DNA of 52,061 nucleotides from an uncultured Pseudacidovorax sp. (lineage in GTDB: Bacteria > Pseudomonadota > Gammaproteobacteria > Burkholderiales > Burkholderiaceae_C), in NCBI RefSeq assembly GCF_913773995.1, contig NZ_CAJYES010000019.1:1-52061 (forward strand). Direction: 5' to 3'. The notes under the pieces are model-generated. The model saw only the letters and a program-made list of their open reading frames with translations. It was not told where the DNA came from and did not search any database. Made by a program: the position numbers and the translations under genes. Each line of letters opens with the position of its first letter. The first letter of the stretch is position 1. Positions 7,458 through 14,678 of the stretch are shown piece after piece.

Positions 7458-8279
7458 TCACTGGAAGCGCGCCACGGACTGCCCGCGCCAGGCCAGCAGG
7501 CGCCGCTCGATGCGGGTGGCGATCCAGTTCAGCGCAAAGCCGACCAGCCCGACCACCACCACGCCGAAGAGCACCAGGTCCATCTTGAAATGCTCGCGGC
7601 CGTCGATCATGGTGTTGCCGATGCCCTGGCCCGAGACGAGCAGGTACTCGGCGCCGAGCGTGGCCAGCCACGCATAGATGAGCGCCAGATGGATGCCCGC
7701 GAAGATCGAGGGCGTCGCGCCCGGCAGCACCACCCGCCACAGCAGTTGCCAGCGGGTGAAGCGCAGCACCCGCGCCACCTCCACCAGCTCGCGCGGCACG
7801 CTGCGGATGCCCTCGTAGGTGTTGAGCACCACCGGGAAGAAGGCCGCCAGCGACAGGAAGGCCACCTTGGCCGCATCGCCCAGGCCGAACCACACGGAGA
7901 TCAGCGGAATCCAGGCGAACAGCGAGATCTGCTTGAGCGTGTGGAAGCTGGGGCCCAGCGCCCGCTCGGCCGGCCGCGACAGACCCAGCAGCAGTCCGAA
8001 GACGAGCCCGCCGCTCGCGCCGATGGCGAAGCCGGCCAGGTCGCGCCACAGGCTGGCGCCCAGCGCCACGCGCAGTTCACCGCTGGCGGTGTAGGTGACG
8101 GCGCGCTGCCACACGGCCTGGGGCGACACCAGCAAGGGCGAGTCGATCCAGCGGAACTGCACCGCCGCCCACCAGAGCAGCAGCAGCGCCAGGGGCAGCA
8201 CCCAGCCGCGCAATGCGGCTGGCACGGGATGGCGGTCGGCACGCGCGGTGGCGTCCTGGTTGTTCGACGAGGCACTCAT
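7458..8279 (-). CDS. ssuC: Sulfonate ABC transporter permease
   Basis: A 273-residue inner-membrane permease of the BPD_transp_1 fold with about six membrane segments. The EAA-type coupling loop is visible as the E-V-A-R-V-L-R-F-T-R-W-Q-L-L-W-R-V-V-L-P-G-A-T-P block near residue 165. It starts three bases after the stop of a second, homologous permease and shares long stretches with it, so the two probably form a heterodimeric channel. Family: taurine/aliphatic sulfonate importers (SsuC/TauC). Confidence 0.93.
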   Translation of the reverse strand: MSASSNNQDATARADRHPVPAALRGWVLPLALLLLWWAAVQFRWIDSPLLVSPQAVWQRAVTYTASGELRVALGASLWRDLAGFAIGASGGLVFGLLLGLSRPAERALGPSFHTLKQISLFAWIPLISVWFGLGDAAKVAFLSLAAFFPVVLNTYEGIRSVPRELVEVARVLRFTRWQLLWRVVLPGATPSIFAGIHLALIYAWLATLGAEYLLVSGQGIGNTMIDGREHFKMDLVLFGVVVVGLVGFALNWIATRIERRLLAWRGQSVARFQ

Positions 8280-8282
8280 GGC

Positions 8283-9149
8283 TCAGAACCCCGGGCGACG
8301 CCAGCGTGTGAGGCGGGACTCGACAGCCGCCAGCAGCCGGTCGAGCGCAAAGCCCACCACGCCGACCACCACCACGGCCGCCAACACCACGTCAAGCTGG
8401 AACAGCTGCCGCCCATAGACGATGAGGAAGCCGATGCCCTCGCTCGATGCCAGCAGCTCCACCACGACCAGCGCCAGCCAGGCGTGGGTGAAGCCATAGC
8501 GGATGCCATTCCAGATGGGCGCGAAGGACGCCGGGAACACCACCTTGGACAGCAGCTGCCAGCGGGTGAAGCGCAGCACGCGCGCCACCTCGATGTAGCG
8601 GGTGGGCACGCCCTGGATGCCCTTGAAGGTGTTGAGCGCCACCGGCACCAGCGCGGCCTTGGCGATCAGCAGCACCTTGAGCGTCTCGTCGATGCCCACC
8701 AGCAGCATCAAGAGCGGCAGCCAGCCCAGCACCGGGATCTGGCTGAAGGCCTTGAAGAAGGGGTAGACGTAATCCTTGAAGCGCGGCCACAGGCCCATCG
8801 CCACGCCCAGCGGCAGGCCGATGGCCGTGCCGGCCGCAAAGCCGGCCAGCACGCGGGCCAGGCTCACGCCCAGGTGCGGCCACAGCTCGCCGGTGCGCAC
8901 CAGGTCGACCAGCGTGGTCCAGACCGCGGCCGGGGCCGGCAGCACCTGCGGCGCCACCCAGGCCCGCTCGGCCGCCACCCACCAAAGCAGCAGGACCGCC
9001 AGCGGAAAGGGCCAGCCGGCCAGGCGCCACGCTGAAGCCTTCAGCCGCTGGCGCCAGGCCGAAGGTCCCGGCGCGGCACGCGCCGGCAGGGGAAGGTGCA
9101 GTGCCGGTGTGCTCATCGCGGGCAGAGAGGCAGGCAACTCGCCGCTCAC
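8283..9149 (-). CDS. ssuC: Sulfonate ABC transporter permease (second subunit)
   Basis: A 288-residue BPD_transp_1 permease with about six membrane segments and the coupling loop I-E-V-A-R-V-L-R-F-T-R-W-Q-L-L near residue 180, nearly identical to that of the next gene. The start taken is GTG at 9149, whose GTGA overlap with the upstream receptor stop implies coupling; an ATG at 9116 is the alternative and would leave a 29-bp gap. Neither has a strong ribosome site. Two similar permeases in a row suggest an ancient tandem duplication. Confidence 0.9.
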   Translation of the reverse strand: MSGELPASLPAMSTPALHLPLPARAAPGPSAWRQRLKASAWRLAGWPFPLAVLLLWWVAAERAWVAPQVLPAPAAVWTTLVDLVRTGELWPHLGVSLARVLAGFAAGTAIGLPLGVAMGLWPRFKDYVYPFFKAFSQIPVLGWLPLLMLLVGIDETLKVLLIAKAALVPVALNTFKGIQGVPTRYIEVARVLRFTRWQLLSKVVFPASFAPIWNGIRYGFTHAWLALVVVELLASSEGIGFLIVYGRQLFQLDVVLAAVVVVGVVGFALDRLLAAVESRLTRWRRPGF

Positions 9150-10114
9150 GCCAGGCCCGAGGCTGCGGCCTCCAGCACCTTGATCGGCTTCGGAATGAGC
9201 TTGAGGGCGTAGAAGGTGTCGGCGATCTGCTGCTGCTCGGCCAGGATGGCGCGGGTGATGGGGCCGGTGCCGAACTGCACCCGGGCGAAGGTGGTGTCCA
9301 CCACCGGCTTGGGCAGCCCCCAGATGGCCGCCAGCTCACCCGAGAAGGCATCGCGGTTAGCGGCGCCCCAGCTGTCGATGCGGGAGATCTCTTCGATCAG
9401 CACCTTGGTGATGTCACGGTTCTTCTCGGCATAGGGCAAGGACGAGAAGTAGTAGGCCCGGTTGCCCACCACGCCCGTGGCATCGGCCAGGATGCGGCCG
9501 CCCAGCGTCTTCTCGGCGGCGGCGAGGAAGGGGTCCCAGATCACCCAGGCGTCGATGGAACCCTTCTCGAAGGCCGCCCGCGCATCGGCCGGCGGCAGGA
9601 AGACCGACTGCACGTCGCCGTAGGCCAGGCCATGCTTCTCGAGCAGCTTGACCAGGAAGTAGTGGACGTTGCTGCCCTTGTTGTAGGCCACGCGCTTGCC
9701 CTTGAGGTCCGCCACGCTGCGGATGGGCGAATCCTTGGGCACGAGCACGGCCTCCGAAGCGGGCCGCGGCACCGTGGCCGCCACATAGGCCAGCGGCGCA
9801 CCTGCGGCCTGGGCAAAGATGGGCGGCGCTTCGCCCACGTCGCCGAAGTCGATGGAGCCGACATTCAGCGCCTCCAGTTGCACGGGGCCGGCCGTGAACT
9901 CGGTCCAGCTCACCTTGACGCCCAGCGGCGCGAGCCGCTGCTCCAGCGTGCCGCGGGCCTTGAGCAGGCTCAGGATGCCCTTCTGGTTGCCGATGCGCAG
10001 CTCGCGCGAAGCGGACTGGGCGAAGGCGGGTGCGCCGGCGAAGGCCACGCCGCCCGCAGCGGCAGTGCCCACCTGCAGCAGGCGACGGCGGGAAAGGGGA
10101 AGCGGGAAAGTCAT
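9146..10114 (-). CDS. ssuA: Aliphatic sulfonate-binding protein (SsuA-like)
   Basis: A 322-residue periplasmic receptor, first gene of the minus-strand sulfonate operon. The signal peptide begins P-L-S-R-R-R-L-L-Q-V-G, a twin-arginine-like motif. The mature part starts R-E-L-R-I-G-N-Q-K-G; G-S-I-D-F-G-D-V-G-E-A-P-P near residue 90, K-G-S-N-V-H-Y-F-L near 150 and W-V-I-W-D-P-F-L near 200 are hallmark SsuA segments. Downstream come two permeases and the ATPase. Upstream is a 251-bp region shared with the divergent tauD-like operon. Confidence 0.93.
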   Translation of the reverse strand: MTFPLPLSRRRLLQVGTAAAGGVAFAGAPAFAQSASRELRIGNQKGILSLLKARGTLEQRLAPLGVKVSWTEFTAGPVQLEALNVGSIDFGDVGEAPPIFAQAAGAPLAYVAATVPRPASEAVLVPKDSPIRSVADLKGKRVAYNKGSNVHYFLVKLLEKHGLAYGDVQSVFLPPADARAAFEKGSIDAWVIWDPFLAAAEKTLGGRILADATGVVGNRAYYFSSLPYAEKNRDITKVLIEEISRIDSWGAANRDAFSGELAAIWGLPKPVVDTTFARVQFGTGPITRAILAEQQQIADTFYALKLIPKPIKVLEAAASGLA

Positions 10115-10197
10115 GTCGGAACAGGCGCTCGCAGCAAGGAAGGGATGCGGATTCTTGGGCCGCCTGCCTTGCTTGGGAAACGCGCAGTTCTCAGGTT

Positions 10198-10280
10198 CTT
10201 ATGCGCAAAGCGAGCAACGCAATGCGGGCCCGAAGGCTCGCATCGGACCGACGCCGCTTGTTGCTCGATCTACGCATAAG
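10198..10280. promoter_or_regulatory. 21-nt imperfect inverted arms in the shared sulfonate control region
   Basis: Between the divergent sulfonate operons, 10198-10218 (CTTATGCG, 5 nt, CGAGCAAC) is repeated in inverted orientation at 10260-10280 (GTTGCTCG, 5 nt, CGCATAAG). The arms match at 18 of 21 positions and their inner ends are 41 nt apart. This geometry suits two facing half-sites for a regulator of both operons, such as a CysB/Cbl/SsuR-type LysR protein. Symmetry is seen; the regulator is inferred, and none is encoded nearby. Confidence 0.55.
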
Positions 10281-10306
10281 CAAATTCGTTTTCCGCTTTA
10301 GATGAT

Positions 10307-10324
10307 TCGCTTGTTTGCAAGCGA
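10307..10324. promoter_or_regulatory. Short palindrome upstream of the tauD-like gene
   Basis: TCGCTTG-TTTG-CAAGCGA, 7-bp perfect arms, 42 bp before the ATG at 10366. It follows an AT-richer stretch (10281-10306) that is the best promoter candidate for the plus-strand operon. It could be an operator or a hairpin in the leader. Confidence 0.4.
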
Positions 10325-10365
10325 GAACTCTGTCGTTCCCGCATCGAAGGTGCGTCCCTAGAGTC

Positions 10366-11304
10366 ATGCCCATCGCCACCGCCCGGTGGCCCCGACCCGA
10401 CGCCCTGGCCATGACCGCCCACGCCCTTCTCGACGACGCCCATTCCCTGCTGCAGGACTTCGACATCCGCCCGCTGCCCGGCAGCTTTGCCGCCGAGGTG
10501 GTGGGACTCGACCTCGGCCGGCCGCTGCTCGCCGACGACTTCGACCGCATCCGCCGCGCGCACTTGGCGCACCCCGTGCTCGTGTTCCGCGACCAGCGCA
10601 TCACGCCGGCCCAGCATGTGGCGTTCAGCCGCCGCTTCGGGCCGCTGCAGATCCATGTGCAGAAGAAGTTCCAGCTCGCCGGCCATCCCGAAGTGCTGAT
10701 CGTCTCCAACATCAAGGAGAACGGCGCGCCCATCGGACTGGGCGATGCCGGCCACTTCTGGCACTCGGACCTGTCGTACAAGGAAAAGCCCAGCCTGGGT
10801 TCCCTGTTGCATGCGCAGGTGCTTCCGGCCGAAGGCGGGGACACGCTCTTCGCCGACCAGCATGCCGCCTGGGAGACGCTGCCCGCGCCGCTGAAGGACC
10901 GCGTGGCCGCGCTGCAGGCCGAGCACAGCTATCTGGCCAAGTACGAGGAGCTGCGCGCCCGCAGCCCGTGGCGTCCGGCCCTCACGGCGGCACAACTCGA
11001 CGAGGTCAGGCCCGTGGTGCATCCGGTGGTGCGCACCCACCCCGAGACGGGCCGCAAGGCGCTCTTCGTCAGCGAGCACTTCACCACGCGCATCGTGGAC
11101 CTGCCCGAGGCAGAGAGCCAGGCGTTGCTGGCCGAGCTGTTCGCGCACAGCACGCAGCCCGCGCTGCAGTACTGCCACCAGTGGCAGCCGCACGACCTGG
11201 TGTTCTGGGACAACCGCTCGGTCACGCACCTGGCCGCAGGCACGCCCGACCACCTGCCGCGCAAGCTGTTCCGCACCACCATCGAGGGCGACCAGCCCTT
11301 CTGA
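10366..11304 (+). CDS. tauD: TauD-like taurine/sulfonate dioxygenase
   Basis: A 312-residue Fe(II)/2-oxoglutarate dioxygenase of the TauD/TfdA family. The iron motif is in F-W-H-S-D-L-S-Y, the distal His in N-R-S-V-T-H-L-A-A-G and the 2-oxoglutarate Arg in R-K-L-F-R-T-T-I-E-G near the C-terminus. The start chosen is the ATG at 10366; a second ATG at 10411 (M-T-A-H-A-L-L) is equally possible because neither has a clear ribosome site. It heads a plus-strand operon with two receptors, an ATPase and a permease, so substrate uptake and desulfonation are encoded together. It is only distantly similar to the other dioxygenase in the window. Confidence 0.9.
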   Translation: MPIATARWPRPDALAMTAHALLDDAHSLLQDFDIRPLPGSFAAEVVGLDLGRPLLADDFDRIRRAHLAHPVLVFRDQRITPAQHVAFSRRFGPLQIHVQKKFQLAGHPEVLIVSNIKENGAPIGLGDAGHFWHSDLSYKEKPSLGSLLHAQVLPAEGGDTLFADQHAAWETLPAPLKDRVAALQAEHSYLAKYEELRARSPWRPALTAAQLDEVRPVVHPVVRTHPETGRKALFVSEHFTTRIVDLPEAESQALLAELFAHSTQPALQYCHQWQPHDLVFWDNRSVTHLAAGTPDHLPRKLFRTTIEGDQPF

Positions 11305-11312
11305 TCATCCCA

Positions 11313-11330
11313 GGCGGCCCAGCGGCCGCC
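11313..11330. repeat. Small perfect hairpin between tauD-like gene and receptor
   Basis: GGCGGCC-CAGC-GGCCGCC, 7-bp perfect arms, lying 9 bases after the dioxygenase stop and 90 bases before the receptor start. No T-tract follows, so it is more likely an mRNA-stability or processing hairpin that lets the receptor be expressed at a higher level than a true terminator. Confidence 0.35.
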
Positions 11331-11420
11331 TCCCTCGGGCGACAGGGACGGAAAGACGGCCACAGGTCCGTCATCCGCAGAAGTCCCGCGCCCGTCCGCC
11401 ACATCCTGGAGAGGAAGCCC

Positions 11421-12431
11421 ATGAAACCCATCACCCGCCGCCTGGCCGCGCTGCTCACCGCCGCCGGCCTGGTCACCGCCTCGCTGGCCGCCCATGCCGA
11501 AGGCCAGATCCGCATCGCCCAGCAGTTCGGCATCGTCTACCTGCTGCTGAACGTGGCGCAGGAGCAGAAGCTCATCGAGAAGCACGCGAAGGCCGCGGGC
11601 ATCGACGCCAAGGTCGAGTTCCTGCAGCTGTCGGGCGGCTCGGCCGTCAACGACGCGCTGCTGTCGGGCAGCATCGACATCGCGGGCGCCGGCGTCGGCC
11701 CGCTGTTCACGCTGTGGGACCGCACCAAGGGGCGCCAGAACGTGAAGGGCGTGGCTTCGCTGGGCAACTTTCCCTACTACCTGGTCACCAACAACCCGAA
11801 CGTGAAGTCCATTGCCGACTTCACCGACAAGGACCGCATCGCGCTGCCGGCCGTCGGCGTGTCGGTGCAGTCCCGCGTGCTGCAACTGGCCTCGGCCAAG
11901 CTGTGGGGCGACAAGGACTTCGCGCGGCTCGACAAGATCAGCGTCGCGCTGCCGCATCCGGATGCCGCCGCGGCCATCATCAAGGGCGGCACCGAGATCA
12001 CGGGCCACTTCGGCAACCCGCCCTTCCAGGAGCAGGAACTGGCCGGCAATCCCAATGCCCGGATCGTGCTCAATTCCTATGATGTGCTGGGCGGGCCGTC
12101 GTCGGCCACGGTGCTGTACGCCACCGAGAAATTCCGGGCCGAGAACCCCAAGACCTACAAGGCCTTCGTGGCCGCGCTGGACGAGGCGGCCCAGTTCATC
12201 CGCAGCCAGCCCGAGCAGGCGGCTGACATCTACCTGAAGGTGAGCGGCGCCAAGACCGACCGCGCGCTGCTGCTGAAGATCATCAGGAACCCCGAGGTGC
12301 AGTTCAAGACCGAGCCGCAGAACACGCTGGCGCTGGGCCAGTTCATGCACCGCGTGGGCGCCATCAAGAACCAGCCGCAGTCGGTGAAGGACTATTTCTT
12401 CGACGACGTGCTCGATGCCCAATCCAACTGA
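11421..12431 (+). CDS. ABC substrate-binding protein (sulfonate/taurine type)
   Basis: A 336-residue periplasmic receptor with a Sec signal (M-K-P-I-T-R-R-L... ending A-H-A-E) and a GGAGAGG ribosome site. Key segments are I-R-I-A-Q-Q-F-G-I near residue 30, L-L-S-G-S-I-D-I-A-G-A-G-V-G near 75 and the C-terminal V-K-D-Y-F-F-D-D. It is the intact paralogue of the next gene, which is disrupted. Both belong to the NMT1/TauA-like superfamily; sulfonate is the likeliest ligand because of the neighbouring dioxygenase and ABC genes. Confidence 0.88.
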   Translation: MKPITRRLAALLTAAGLVTASLAAHAEGQIRIAQQFGIVYLLLNVAQEQKLIEKHAKAAGIDAKVEFLQLSGGSAVNDALLSGSIDIAGAGVGPLFTLWDRTKGRQNVKGVASLGNFPYYLVTNNPNVKSIADFTDKDRIALPAVGVSVQSRVLQLASAKLWGDKDFARLDKISVALPHPDAAAAIIKGGTEITGHFGNPPFQEQELAGNPNARIVLNSYDVLGGPSSATVLYATEKFRAENPKTYKAFVAALDEAAQFIRSQPEQAADIYLKVSGAKTDRALLLKIIRNPEVQFKTEPQNTLALGQFMHRVGAIKNQPQSVKDYFFDDVLDAQSN

Positions 12432-13106
12432 CATGACCTCGCTTCATCGAAGGAACCTTCTCAAGGCCGGCGCCGCTGCCGCCCTGGGCATGGGCGCAGT
12501 GGCGGCCCGCGCCGAAGGGCGCATCCGCATCGCGCAGCAGTTCGGCATCGGCTACCTTCTGCTGGACGTGGTGCGCGACCGCAAGCTTATCGAGAAGCAC
12601 GCCAAGGCCCTGGGTGTGCCGGTGGTCGAGGTGGAGTGGTCGTCGATCTCTGGCGCCACGGCCATGAACGAGGCCCTGCTGGCCGGCTCGCTGGACATCG
12701 TCTCGGCCGGCGTGCCGCCCATGCTCACGATGTGGGACCGAACGCGCGGCCGCCAGAACGTCAAGGCCGTTGCCGCGCTGGGCGCGCTGCCCAACTACCT
12801 GCTGAGCAACAACCCGCAGGTGCGCACGCTGAAGGACCTGGGCCCCAGGGACCGCATCGCGGTGCCTGCGGCCGGCGTGGGCTTTCAGTCGCGCGTGCTG
12901 CAGATCGAGGCGGCGCGCGTGTTCGGCCGCGAGAACTTCAAGCGCCTGGACGACATCTCGGTCAGCCTGCCACATCCGGATGCGACGGCGGCGCTGATCA
13001 AGGGCGGCTCGGAGATCAACACGCATTTCTCCAGCGCGCCGTTCTACTACCAGGCCCTGGCCGCCAACCCGGCGGTGCACAAGGTGATCAGCAGCTACGA
13101 CATTTT

Positions 13107-13136
13107 GGGCCTGTTAGCGCTATGCAAGGGGTCGCG
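13107..13136 (+). repeat. Left terminal inverted repeat of the element
   Basis: Thirty bases beginning GGGCCTGTTAGCGC and ending GGGGTCGCG. The reverse complement is found at 13340-13370 with a single-base insertion. Confidence 0.85.
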
Positions 13137-13232
13137 AAGCGCATCACAGCCCGCCCATCAAGGCGCGCGACGCCGTGCGTGTGTTCACACGCACAAGGAG
13201 CGCAACGCCGAGGGGCGGGCTGTGATGCGCTT
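13137..13232. repeat. First hairpin lobe of the element
   Basis: AAGCGCATCACAGCCCGCCC (13137-13156) pairs perfectly over 20 bases with 13213-13232. The loop holds a second perfect hairpin, GTGCGTGTG-TT-CACACGCAC (13175-13194). Confidence 0.85.
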
Positions 13233-13240
13233 CCCTTCGG

Positions 13241-13340
13241 GTTGCGCCGCGAAGGGGCCGTCTGCGGCGTTGCCAGCGCTTGCAAGGCCTCGGCCTTGCT
13301 GCGCGCAGGCGCCTTGCATCCAGCCCCTTTGCGACGCAAC
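13241..13340. repeat. Second hairpin lobe of the element
   Basis: GTTGCGCCGCGAAGGGG (13241-13257) pairs with 13324-13340 at 15 of 17 positions, and the loop again contains a perfect inner hairpin, GCAAGGCC-TC-GGCCTTGC (13282-13299). The two lobes are therefore built alike but differ in sequence. Confidence 0.8.
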
Positions 13341-13370
13341 GCGATCCCCTTGCATAGCGCTAACAGGCCC
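13340..13370 (-). repeat. Right terminal inverted repeat of the element
   Basis: Thirty-one bases beginning CGCGATCCCC and ending GCGCTAACAGGCCC, the inverted copy of 13107-13136. It is followed by TAGGC, where the receptor reading frame resumes. Confidence 0.85.
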
Positions 13371-13781
13371 TAGGCGGGCCGGCGACCTTCAACGTGCTCT
13401 ACACCACGCAGAAGTACCGCGACGAGAACCGCCTGGTCTACAAGGCCTTCTACAACGCGCTGGTGGAGGCCGAGCAGTTCGTCAAGGCCGACAAGGCCGC
13501 CGCGGCGGACATCTTCATCCGCGTGCAGAACTCCCGGCTCGACCCGGCCCTGGTGCGGCGCATCGTCGAGGACCCGGAGAACGACTTCACCGTCTCGCCG
13601 CAGCGCAGCCAGGTCTATGCCGACGAGCTGTTCAAGCTGGGCGTGCTGCGCAACCAGGCCGCCTCGTGGAAGGACTTCTTCTTCGAGGAGGCGTGGAGCC
13701 GGCCGGGCAGTTGATGCTGCTCGCCCTGCCGCTCGCCCCTGTCCGACCGCCCCGCTCCCCCTTTTCCTCTTCGCCTCTGCC

Positions 13782-14678
13782 ATGACCGCCGCTGCCACAG
13801 CCACCCTGCGTGCCGCGCCTGCGCCGGCCCGCGCCGCCGCCCCCCTTCCCCGAAGCCAGCCCGGCCGGCCCGCGGCCGACACCGCCAGCGCCGCCGCCCT
13901 GCTGCAGGTGCAGGGCGTGAGCCTGGAGTACCGCACGCCCGAGCACGTGGTTCGCGCCACCCACCAGGTCAGCTTCGATGTACACCAGGCCGAGCGCTTC
14001 GTGCTGCTGGGCCCTTCGGGCTGCGGCAAGAGCACGCTGCTCAAGGCCATCGCCGGCTTCATCCCGCCCGCCGAGGGCGAGATCCACCTGGACGGCCGAC
14101 GCGTCCAGGGCCCCGGCCCGGACCGCATCGTCGTGTTCCAGGAGTTCGACCAGCTGCCGCCCTGGAAGACGGTCAAACAGAACGTGATGTTCCCGCTGCT
14201 GGCCTCGCGCACGCTGGGCCGGCGCGAAGCCGAGGAGCGCGCCCTGCACTGGCTGGACCGCGTGGGCCTGTCCCGCTTTGCCGACGTGCATCCGCATCAG
14301 CTGTCGGGCGGCATGAAGCAGCGCGTGGCCATCGCCCGTGCCCTGGCCATGCAGCCGCGCGTCCTGCTGATGGACGAGCCCTTCGCCGCGCTGGATGCGC
14401 TCACGCGCCGCCGCATGCAGGAAGAGCTGCTGGCCCTGTGGGAAGAGCTGCGCTTCACCCTGCTCTTCGTCACCCATTCCATCGAGGAGGCGCTGGTGGT
14501 GGGCAGCCGCATCGCGCTGCTGTCGCCGCACCCGGGCCGCATGCGGGCCGAGATCAACAGCCACGGCTTCGACCTGGCCAGCCAGGGCAGCCCCGCGTTC
14601 CAGGCCACGGCCCAGCGCATCCACCACCTGCTGTTCGACGCGCCGCCGCACGGCGTCCACGGAGACCATCCGCAATGA
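13782..14678 (+). CDS. Sulfonate/taurine-type ABC transporter ATPase
   Basis: A 298-residue ABC ATPase. After an Ala/Pro-rich N-terminal extension of about 40 residues come Walker A G-P-S-G-C-G-K-S-T, Q-loop V-F-Q-E-F-D-Q-L-P-P-W, signature L-S-G-G-M-K-Q-R-V and Walker B V-L-L-M-D-E-P-F-A-A-L-D, then switch His in V-T-H-S-I-E-E-A. The extension is unusual for the family. Its ATGA overlaps the permease start, and it follows the two receptor genes, so it belongs to the same operon. Confidence 0.93.
   Translation: MTAAATATLRAAPAPARAAAPLPRSQPGRPAADTASAAALLQVQGVSLEYRTPEHVVRATHQVSFDVHQAERFVLLGPSGCGKSTLLKAIAGFIPPAEGEIHLDGRRVQGPGPDRIVVFQEFDQLPPWKTVKQNVMFPLLASRTLGRREAEERALHWLDRVGLSRFADVHPHQLSGGMKQRVAIARALAMQPRVLLMDEPFAALDALTRRRMQEELLALWEELRFTLLFVTHSIEEALVVGSRIALLSPHPGRMRAEINSHGFDLASQGSPAFQATAQRIHHLLFDAPPHGVHGDHPQ

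Follow-up and report, generated by a model that had tools for sequence, protein, structure and literature searches.

The interrupted gene and its insertion site

The window analysed here is a 52,061-nt stretch of DNA from an uncultured Pseudacidovorax sp. By eye, its region 7458-14675 holds an ABC transporter gene cluster with tandem substrate-binding paralogues, one of which is broken by a 264-bp element. The 5′ part of the interrupted gene lies at 12415-13106 and the 3′ part at 13371-13714, both on the + strand. Neither the 5′ half nor the stretch 13394-13711 matched a Pfam family when searched alone, and the two parts were assigned by comparison with orthologues; the neighbouring paralogue (11454-12428) matches the NMT1-like families PF13379 and PF09084. 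Judged from sequence, the interrupted gene probably encodes a periplasmic ABC-transporter substrate-binding protein. The initial annotation had proposed a comparison with empty sites, and none of the seven closest orthologues from the genus, which are 85-95% identical, is interrupted at the insertion point. Relative to these empty orthologues the insertion amounts to +265 bp, which shifts the reading frame and leaves the 3′ part out of frame.

Anatomy and fold of the element

The whole element (GGGCCTGTTAGCGCTA) occupies 13107-13370, is assigned to neither strand, and is a two-headed palindrome with ends that we term type 1. Inverted repeats, folding, further copies and empty sites all support it, and the coordinates given initially for an insert with inverted-repeat ends fit the inverted repeat exactly. 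Its terminal inverted repeats are the left outer arm at 13107-13136 (+) and the right outer arm, found by the inverted-repeat search, at 13340-13370 (−). The arms are complementary at 25 of 25 positions over 13107-13131 and 13346-13370, as had been noted from the sequence, and at 97% over 30 nt; they form helix 1 of the conserved structure described below. To the right, TA at 13371-13372 (+) represents the target duplication; the left-hand counterpart at 13105-13106 is TT.

Between the arms lie two lobes, each a long stem with an apical hairpin, in agreement with the initial description. Lobe 1 (13136-13233) was recovered by the inverted-repeat search, by folding and by the family alignment; its arms, 13136-13159 and 13210-13233, are 96% complementary. 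Lobe 2 (13241-13340) is missing from the list of ungapped repeats and appears in the folds and the family alignment as a long stem with small mismatches. At the four-way junction between the lobes, a mini-hairpin CC-TTC-GG (13234-13240) corresponds to alignment columns 140-146, which are paired in 47-48 of 48 sequences.

The lobes were initially described as differing in sequence. This holds for their arms, but when lobe 1 is read on the other strand both lobes carry the same apical motif in opposite orientation. In order, the motif consists of GGCGTTGC, a short variable stretch, CTYG, an apical hairpin, GGCG and GCGCCTTG. We refer to this conserved 61-nt hairpin as the head. Head 1 lies at 13155-13215 (−) and head 2, 105 bp away, at 13260-13320 (+); a covariance model of the head, R1, matches them with E values of 3.8e-14 and 1.9e-10, both sequences being themselves among those used to train it.

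Folded as single-stranded DNA, the 264 bp reached −124.9 kcal/mol against −69.2 ± 3.6 kcal/mol for 200 dinucleotide shuffles (z = −15.4), and none of the shuffles folded as well. Folding as RNA gave z = −15.2 against shuffles. This comparison and the pairing seen throughout the family rule out a chance palindrome.

Copies and distribution

Within the genus, matches were found in 10 of 15 genomes, and eight of the 15 carry 16 full-length copies. These copies occupy 14 distinct sites, because genomes G006 and G007 share sites. Across the GTDB family some match is present in 107 of 399 genomes, and in 56 of 141 genera, many being weak or incomplete; full-length related copies in other Burkholderiales genera measure 263-267 bp. 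The copy search in Burkholderiales suggested at the outset thus returned a dispersed repeat. One Variovorax paradoxus plasmid record also matches, and it bears no annotation at the matching place. An assembly artefact, or a sequence confined to this locus, is ruled out since different genomes carry the element with different flanks.

Sixty copies were taken for the family alignment. Fifty-three match the query over its full length and are called type-1 copies, with identities to a reference copy as low as ~66%; seven were left out as partial matches to one query, and some of these, for example L017, are full-length elements with diverged ends. The element was said to have no transposase, and none is present: 264 bp is too short to hold such a gene, and the 1-nt length changes among the 263-267-bp copies break any reading frame. 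At one locus (L107; G202:C1:2026216-2027384) a type-1 element and an element of a second end class, type 2, abut at ~499-766 and 767-1035; the pair shares TA(A) between the elements, as if one had inserted at the flank of the other.

Terminal repeats, target duplications and partner insertion sequences

Of the 53 type-1 copies, 35 are flanked by TA both left and right (39 have it on the left, 43 on the right), and the remaining 18 lack TA on at least one side. The copy in the window belongs to the latter, its left TA having been lost (TT) and its right TA kept. Type-2 ends begin with GAAC(C/G)TGTTYACGATCT or a close variant, and the same TNA triplet stands on both sides of 10 of 15 type-2 copies, or of 9 of 14 sites when the G006/G007 twin is counted once.

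The initial annotation had advised looking for a full-length transposon with the same ends. A search with the end sequences found, in the congener G014, 0.8-kb elements with type-1 ends adjoining TA. They encode an IS5-family transposase in two frames (PF13340, PF01609; NCBIfam NF033580), and their GGGCCTGTTAACACTA ends differ from those of the window copy at 2 of 16 bases (14/16 same). G014 also holds a different two-frame insertion sequence with type-2 ends, flanked by TTA or TGA and likewise matching PF13340/PF01609. Since these two insertion sequences match the two end classes in both ends and target, each class follows its own insertion sequence. IS427 and IS1031 are subgroups of the IS5 family.

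The G014 insertion sequence with matching ends has no core of this kind, which excludes the element as part of a same-ended insertion sequence and bears out the first impression that it is not an IS fragment. An integron attC site, considered on account of the GTTA/TAAC ends, was rejected because the ends match an insertion sequence instead. Dispersed copies, empty sites and TA duplication in the family support the suggestion of a non-autonomous MITE-like family, and the match of ends and TA flank to an IS5-family insertion sequence makes a MITE mobilised in trans the best reading.

An L058-like transposase was absent from the host draft genome at E ≤ 1e-20 and present in only one of the 15 genus genomes, which weakens the claim that the window copy can move now; the contigs of a draft may end inside repeats. 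Two contigs of G008 end just inside an apparent type-1-like insertion sequence, L066 by its sequence and L067 by length and end position only.

Helpers for further end classes were sought as inverted end pairs 600-2500 bp apart, with 18 end patterns and 347 loci. Type 2 returned its two known insertion-sequence copies, no helper for the other classes was found in the 347 loci, and 13 of the 18 patterns had no pair at IS-like spacing. Four patterns gave seven pairs. Six of these (L327, L285, L303, L217, L331 and L010) enclose host genes, as judged by eye, and no transposases; the seventh, L011, repeats the L010 site in a genome that is nearly identical. At L327, in genome G965, an element at 8114-8382 and a further end at 9580 flank a gene resembling a hydrolase by eye, and the two may possibly form a composite unit. 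In G428, from another family of the order, loci L124, L126, L128 and L129 carry type-2, IS5-like end pairs 141 bp apart with no head core, which probably represent a different MITE.

A conserved two-lobed structure

The 48 elements of alignment A1 share a common plan in which an outer stem, lobe 1, a two-pair mini-hairpin and lobe 2 are joined at a four-way junction. For A1, a crude redundancy filter cut 89 entries to 49, and L013 was removed because its ends failed; residual redundancy includes L095/L115 at 98% and four pairs at 90.5-91.3%. Mean column identity among the aligned copies is 66%. Over 97 pairs and 48 sequences, 93.9% of cells are standard-paired, compared with 69.5% after shuffling of partners and 37-43% in slid controls, over which the structure is favoured, having been derived from the same alignment. 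Changes on both sides occur in 80 pairs (shuffled, 64.6) and 1070 cells (shuffled, 318). The structured element suspected from the single copy is therefore conserved, with compensatory change, across the family.

The strong fold, this covariation and the conserved unpaired motifs are what a structured non-coding RNA gene or a cis-regulatory RNA on a mobile element, with selection acting on the transcript, would also display. Helices kept as RNA tolerate G-U on the transcribed strand and do not tolerate A-C. Several column pairs are often G-U on the + strand (31/258, 54/122, 85/90, 173/228, 174/227, 177/224 and 193/206) and could be read as an RNA signal. The stem mismatches point the other way: A-C was as common as G-T, whereas G-U would be expected to predominate in an RNA transcribed from a single strand. 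Among 3916 pairs in the outer stems of 178 elements there are 32 G-T and 38 A-C mismatches, and the lobe stems of 77 elements, after three elements without a recognised junction were set aside, contain 45 G-T and 50 A-C. The two lobes lean oppositely, with 28 G-T and 22 A-C in lobe 1 and 17 G-T and 28 A-C in lobe 2. Moreover, the heads face in opposite directions, so that each strand carries one sense and one antisense head, and no Rfam family was matched at its gathering score in 10 loci, the matches in the window lying far below it. We accordingly consider an RNA element improbable. From the near-equal mismatch counts the palindrome seems to be kept in DNA rather than as RNA, which retains the first half of the earlier suggestion of a structured DNA/RNA element and disfavours the second. 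The mismatches look like mostly strand-neutral decay after insertion.

Reach of the 61-nt head

Model R1 was trained on heads from the two lobes of a varied set of copies, including those of the window. Elsewhere in the host genome it gave three matches with E values of 2.6e-5 or better and a weak one (0.004). The three better matches, L159, L160 and L161 (C11:14263, C158:617 and C226:165810), are one-headed palindromes of 161-168 bp with ends unlike those of the window element; two of the three are similar to each other.

At E ≤ 1e-4, about a quarter of the class genomes sampled (75 of 321) contain heads detected by R1. Many of these heads occur in inverted pairs ~105 bp apart, as in the window. 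Where the motifs match, their spacing is rigid, at 35-37 and about 53-57. A three-motif pattern search of named genomes returned at least 119 stretches, 80 of them listed by name; the genera among the matches listed include Variovorax, Acidovorax, Azoarcus, Pseudomonas, Stutzerimonas, Thioalkalivibrio, Halothiobacillus, Microbulbifer and Salinisphaera. The two-headed core, with other ends, is thus present outside Burkholderiales. From the at least 119 stretches, in which 15 matches lay at a contig edge, 107 elements were examined; among the matches listed, 87 were kept, which had 17 or more of 20 terminal bases paired and measured 255-290 bp, and 20 were dropped. An earlier subset (80 examined, 73 elements, 61 kept) had given a mismatch count that is superseded by the full set.

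When the terminal bases of the 178 elements were clustered crudely, 36 clusters resulted, of which 21 had more than one member. A handful of the small clusters are type-1 variants; we speak of about thirty kinds of terminal repeat. Matches in metagenome-assembled genomes (MAGs) named Kofleriaceae, Myxococcota and Rhodospirillales have weak ends (12-14/20) and may be due to chance; those in MAGs named Desulfuromonadales and Verrucomicrobia have ends pairing at 18-20 of 20 positions and may reflect MAG contamination.

One end class can accompany different numbers of lobes. The stretches read in G965, a genome of the class, comprise nine two-lobe elements of 267-269 bp, three one-lobe elements of 163-195 bp and two of 57-61 bp with no lobe. 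Solitary single-head hairpins were seen at L139, L144, L145, L149 and L153. In L149 and L144 the head tops a long stem that ends in a short run of T, and these could be two-way terminators.

Origin and maintenance of the element

We regard it as highly probable that the element is one member of an old and extensive superfamily of MITE-type, non-autonomous DNA transposons, with IS5-type ends and a conserved folded core, that is moved in trans. Dispersed copies, the empty site, ends and target duplications matching in two end classes, the conserved structure, the modularity and the diversity of ends are observed directly; from them we infer mobilisation in trans, folding in the cell and a benefit of the core. 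The outer arms would imitate the ends of an IS5-type insertion sequence, here one with GGGCCTGTTAACACTA ends and a TA target, whose DDE transposase would cut and paste the element in trans. The core, with its two inverted 61-nt bulged hairpin heads around a four-way junction, could extrude as a two-lobed cruciform from single-stranded or supercoiled DNA. As it would persist through exchange of the ends, different versions would be moved by different insertion sequences. The palindrome appears to be maintained in the DNA itself, presumably through selection for its folded form, through template-switch repair between the arms, or through both. The window copy would have inserted into the probable ABC-transporter substrate-binding gene and caused its frameshift.

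The main rival accepts the IS5-type MITE and takes its core as a passive leftover, whose palindromes have no function and owe their persistence to template-switch correction and recent transposition. Arm pairing can indeed survive through the mechanics of mutation alone, MITEs need only their ends, the core-free type-2 end pairs of G428 show the same ends 141 bp apart, and the mismatch spectrum resembles neutral decay. Passive filler should, however, drift or vanish. Head motifs that are recognisable across the class and across end classes, rigid spacing between the motifs and retention of the same head in both lobes count against it and are not easily explained by template switching, and we find a functionless core rather doubtful.

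A bolder form of the preferred reading is that the superfamily constitutes a distinct kind of mobile element, a transposase-independent, self-conserving two-headed DNA structure that has repeatedly adopted the ends of available insertion sequences. Its heads, single-stranded or in cruciform shape, would act as signals to some host or replication factor by which transposition, or the chance of capturing new ends, is increased. We offer this tentatively, as a serious possibility that falls short of an even chance.

Two inverted hairpins with conserved bulges also resemble the plan of REPINs, and the element might be a giant relative of these, its lobe hairpins being recognised by a Y1-type (RAYT) transposase and its IS5-like ends being secondary. 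Solitary heads exist, and the GGCG/CGCC of the head with its TT bulge is similar by eye to an E. coli REP in the portion of PMC2817692 consulted. The REP definition of a 20-40 bp palindrome tagged with GTAG or CGTC does not extend to a 61-nt head in whose alignment (A2) no invariant tag, GTAG-type or other, is evident by inspection, and the ends with their TNA or TA duplications match DDE insertion sequences. A Y1-driven element is the most improbable of the explanations considered.

Comparison with known systems

MITEs are a known kind of element, and the present one shares their features: it is short and without a transposase, has inverted ends, a family target duplication, dispersed copies and empty sites, and has a same-ended autonomous partner in G014. 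A single structured core across genera with about thirty end classes is apparently undescribed. In the part of the literature covered, which included few subscription papers, no description of a shared core with many ends was found, and the end and head strings occurred in no paper. The 61-nt head model thus detects, in about a quarter of the sampled genomes of the class, a repeat not found in Rfam or the literature searched. The portion of the review PMC10969869 consulted cites the Polaromonas JS666 genome paper for a MITE, and that paper possibly contains an earlier description of the element.

The IS5-family insertion sequences (PF13340/PF01609, NF033580) are like the element in their terminal 15-17 bp and in target duplication (TA; TNA), for two end classes. 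They differ in that the insertion sequence has a transposase and no folded core, whereas the element has the core and no transposase gene.

REP and REPIN sequences with their RAYT transposases likewise form inverted hairpins in solitary and dimeric forms, according to the sections of PMC2817692 and PMC3733652 consulted. The element is much larger, with its 61-nt head and lobes of about 100 bp, and has DDE-type ends and target duplications. PMC3733652, as far as consulted, suggests that a wide range of transposases may move CGTC repeats; REP dimers and these CGTC repeats moved by many transposases are the nearest published ideas.

Bacterial MITEs such as ERIC and Correia are short, lack a transposase, have inverted ends, are dispersed and can fold, and MITEs are usually viewed as decayed copies of one insertion sequence that die with it. 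QMITE, treated in the review PMC10969869, is a further example. What sets the element apart from such MITEs is a single core architecture, with compensatory change, that recurs in many genera and in about thirty crudely defined clusters of terminal repeats. One core combined with about thirty kinds of ends would mean that DNA folding is under selection in bacterial transposons and that such elements have a way of switching from one transposase to another, and the two-headed element makes it testable whether cruciform DNA aids transposition.
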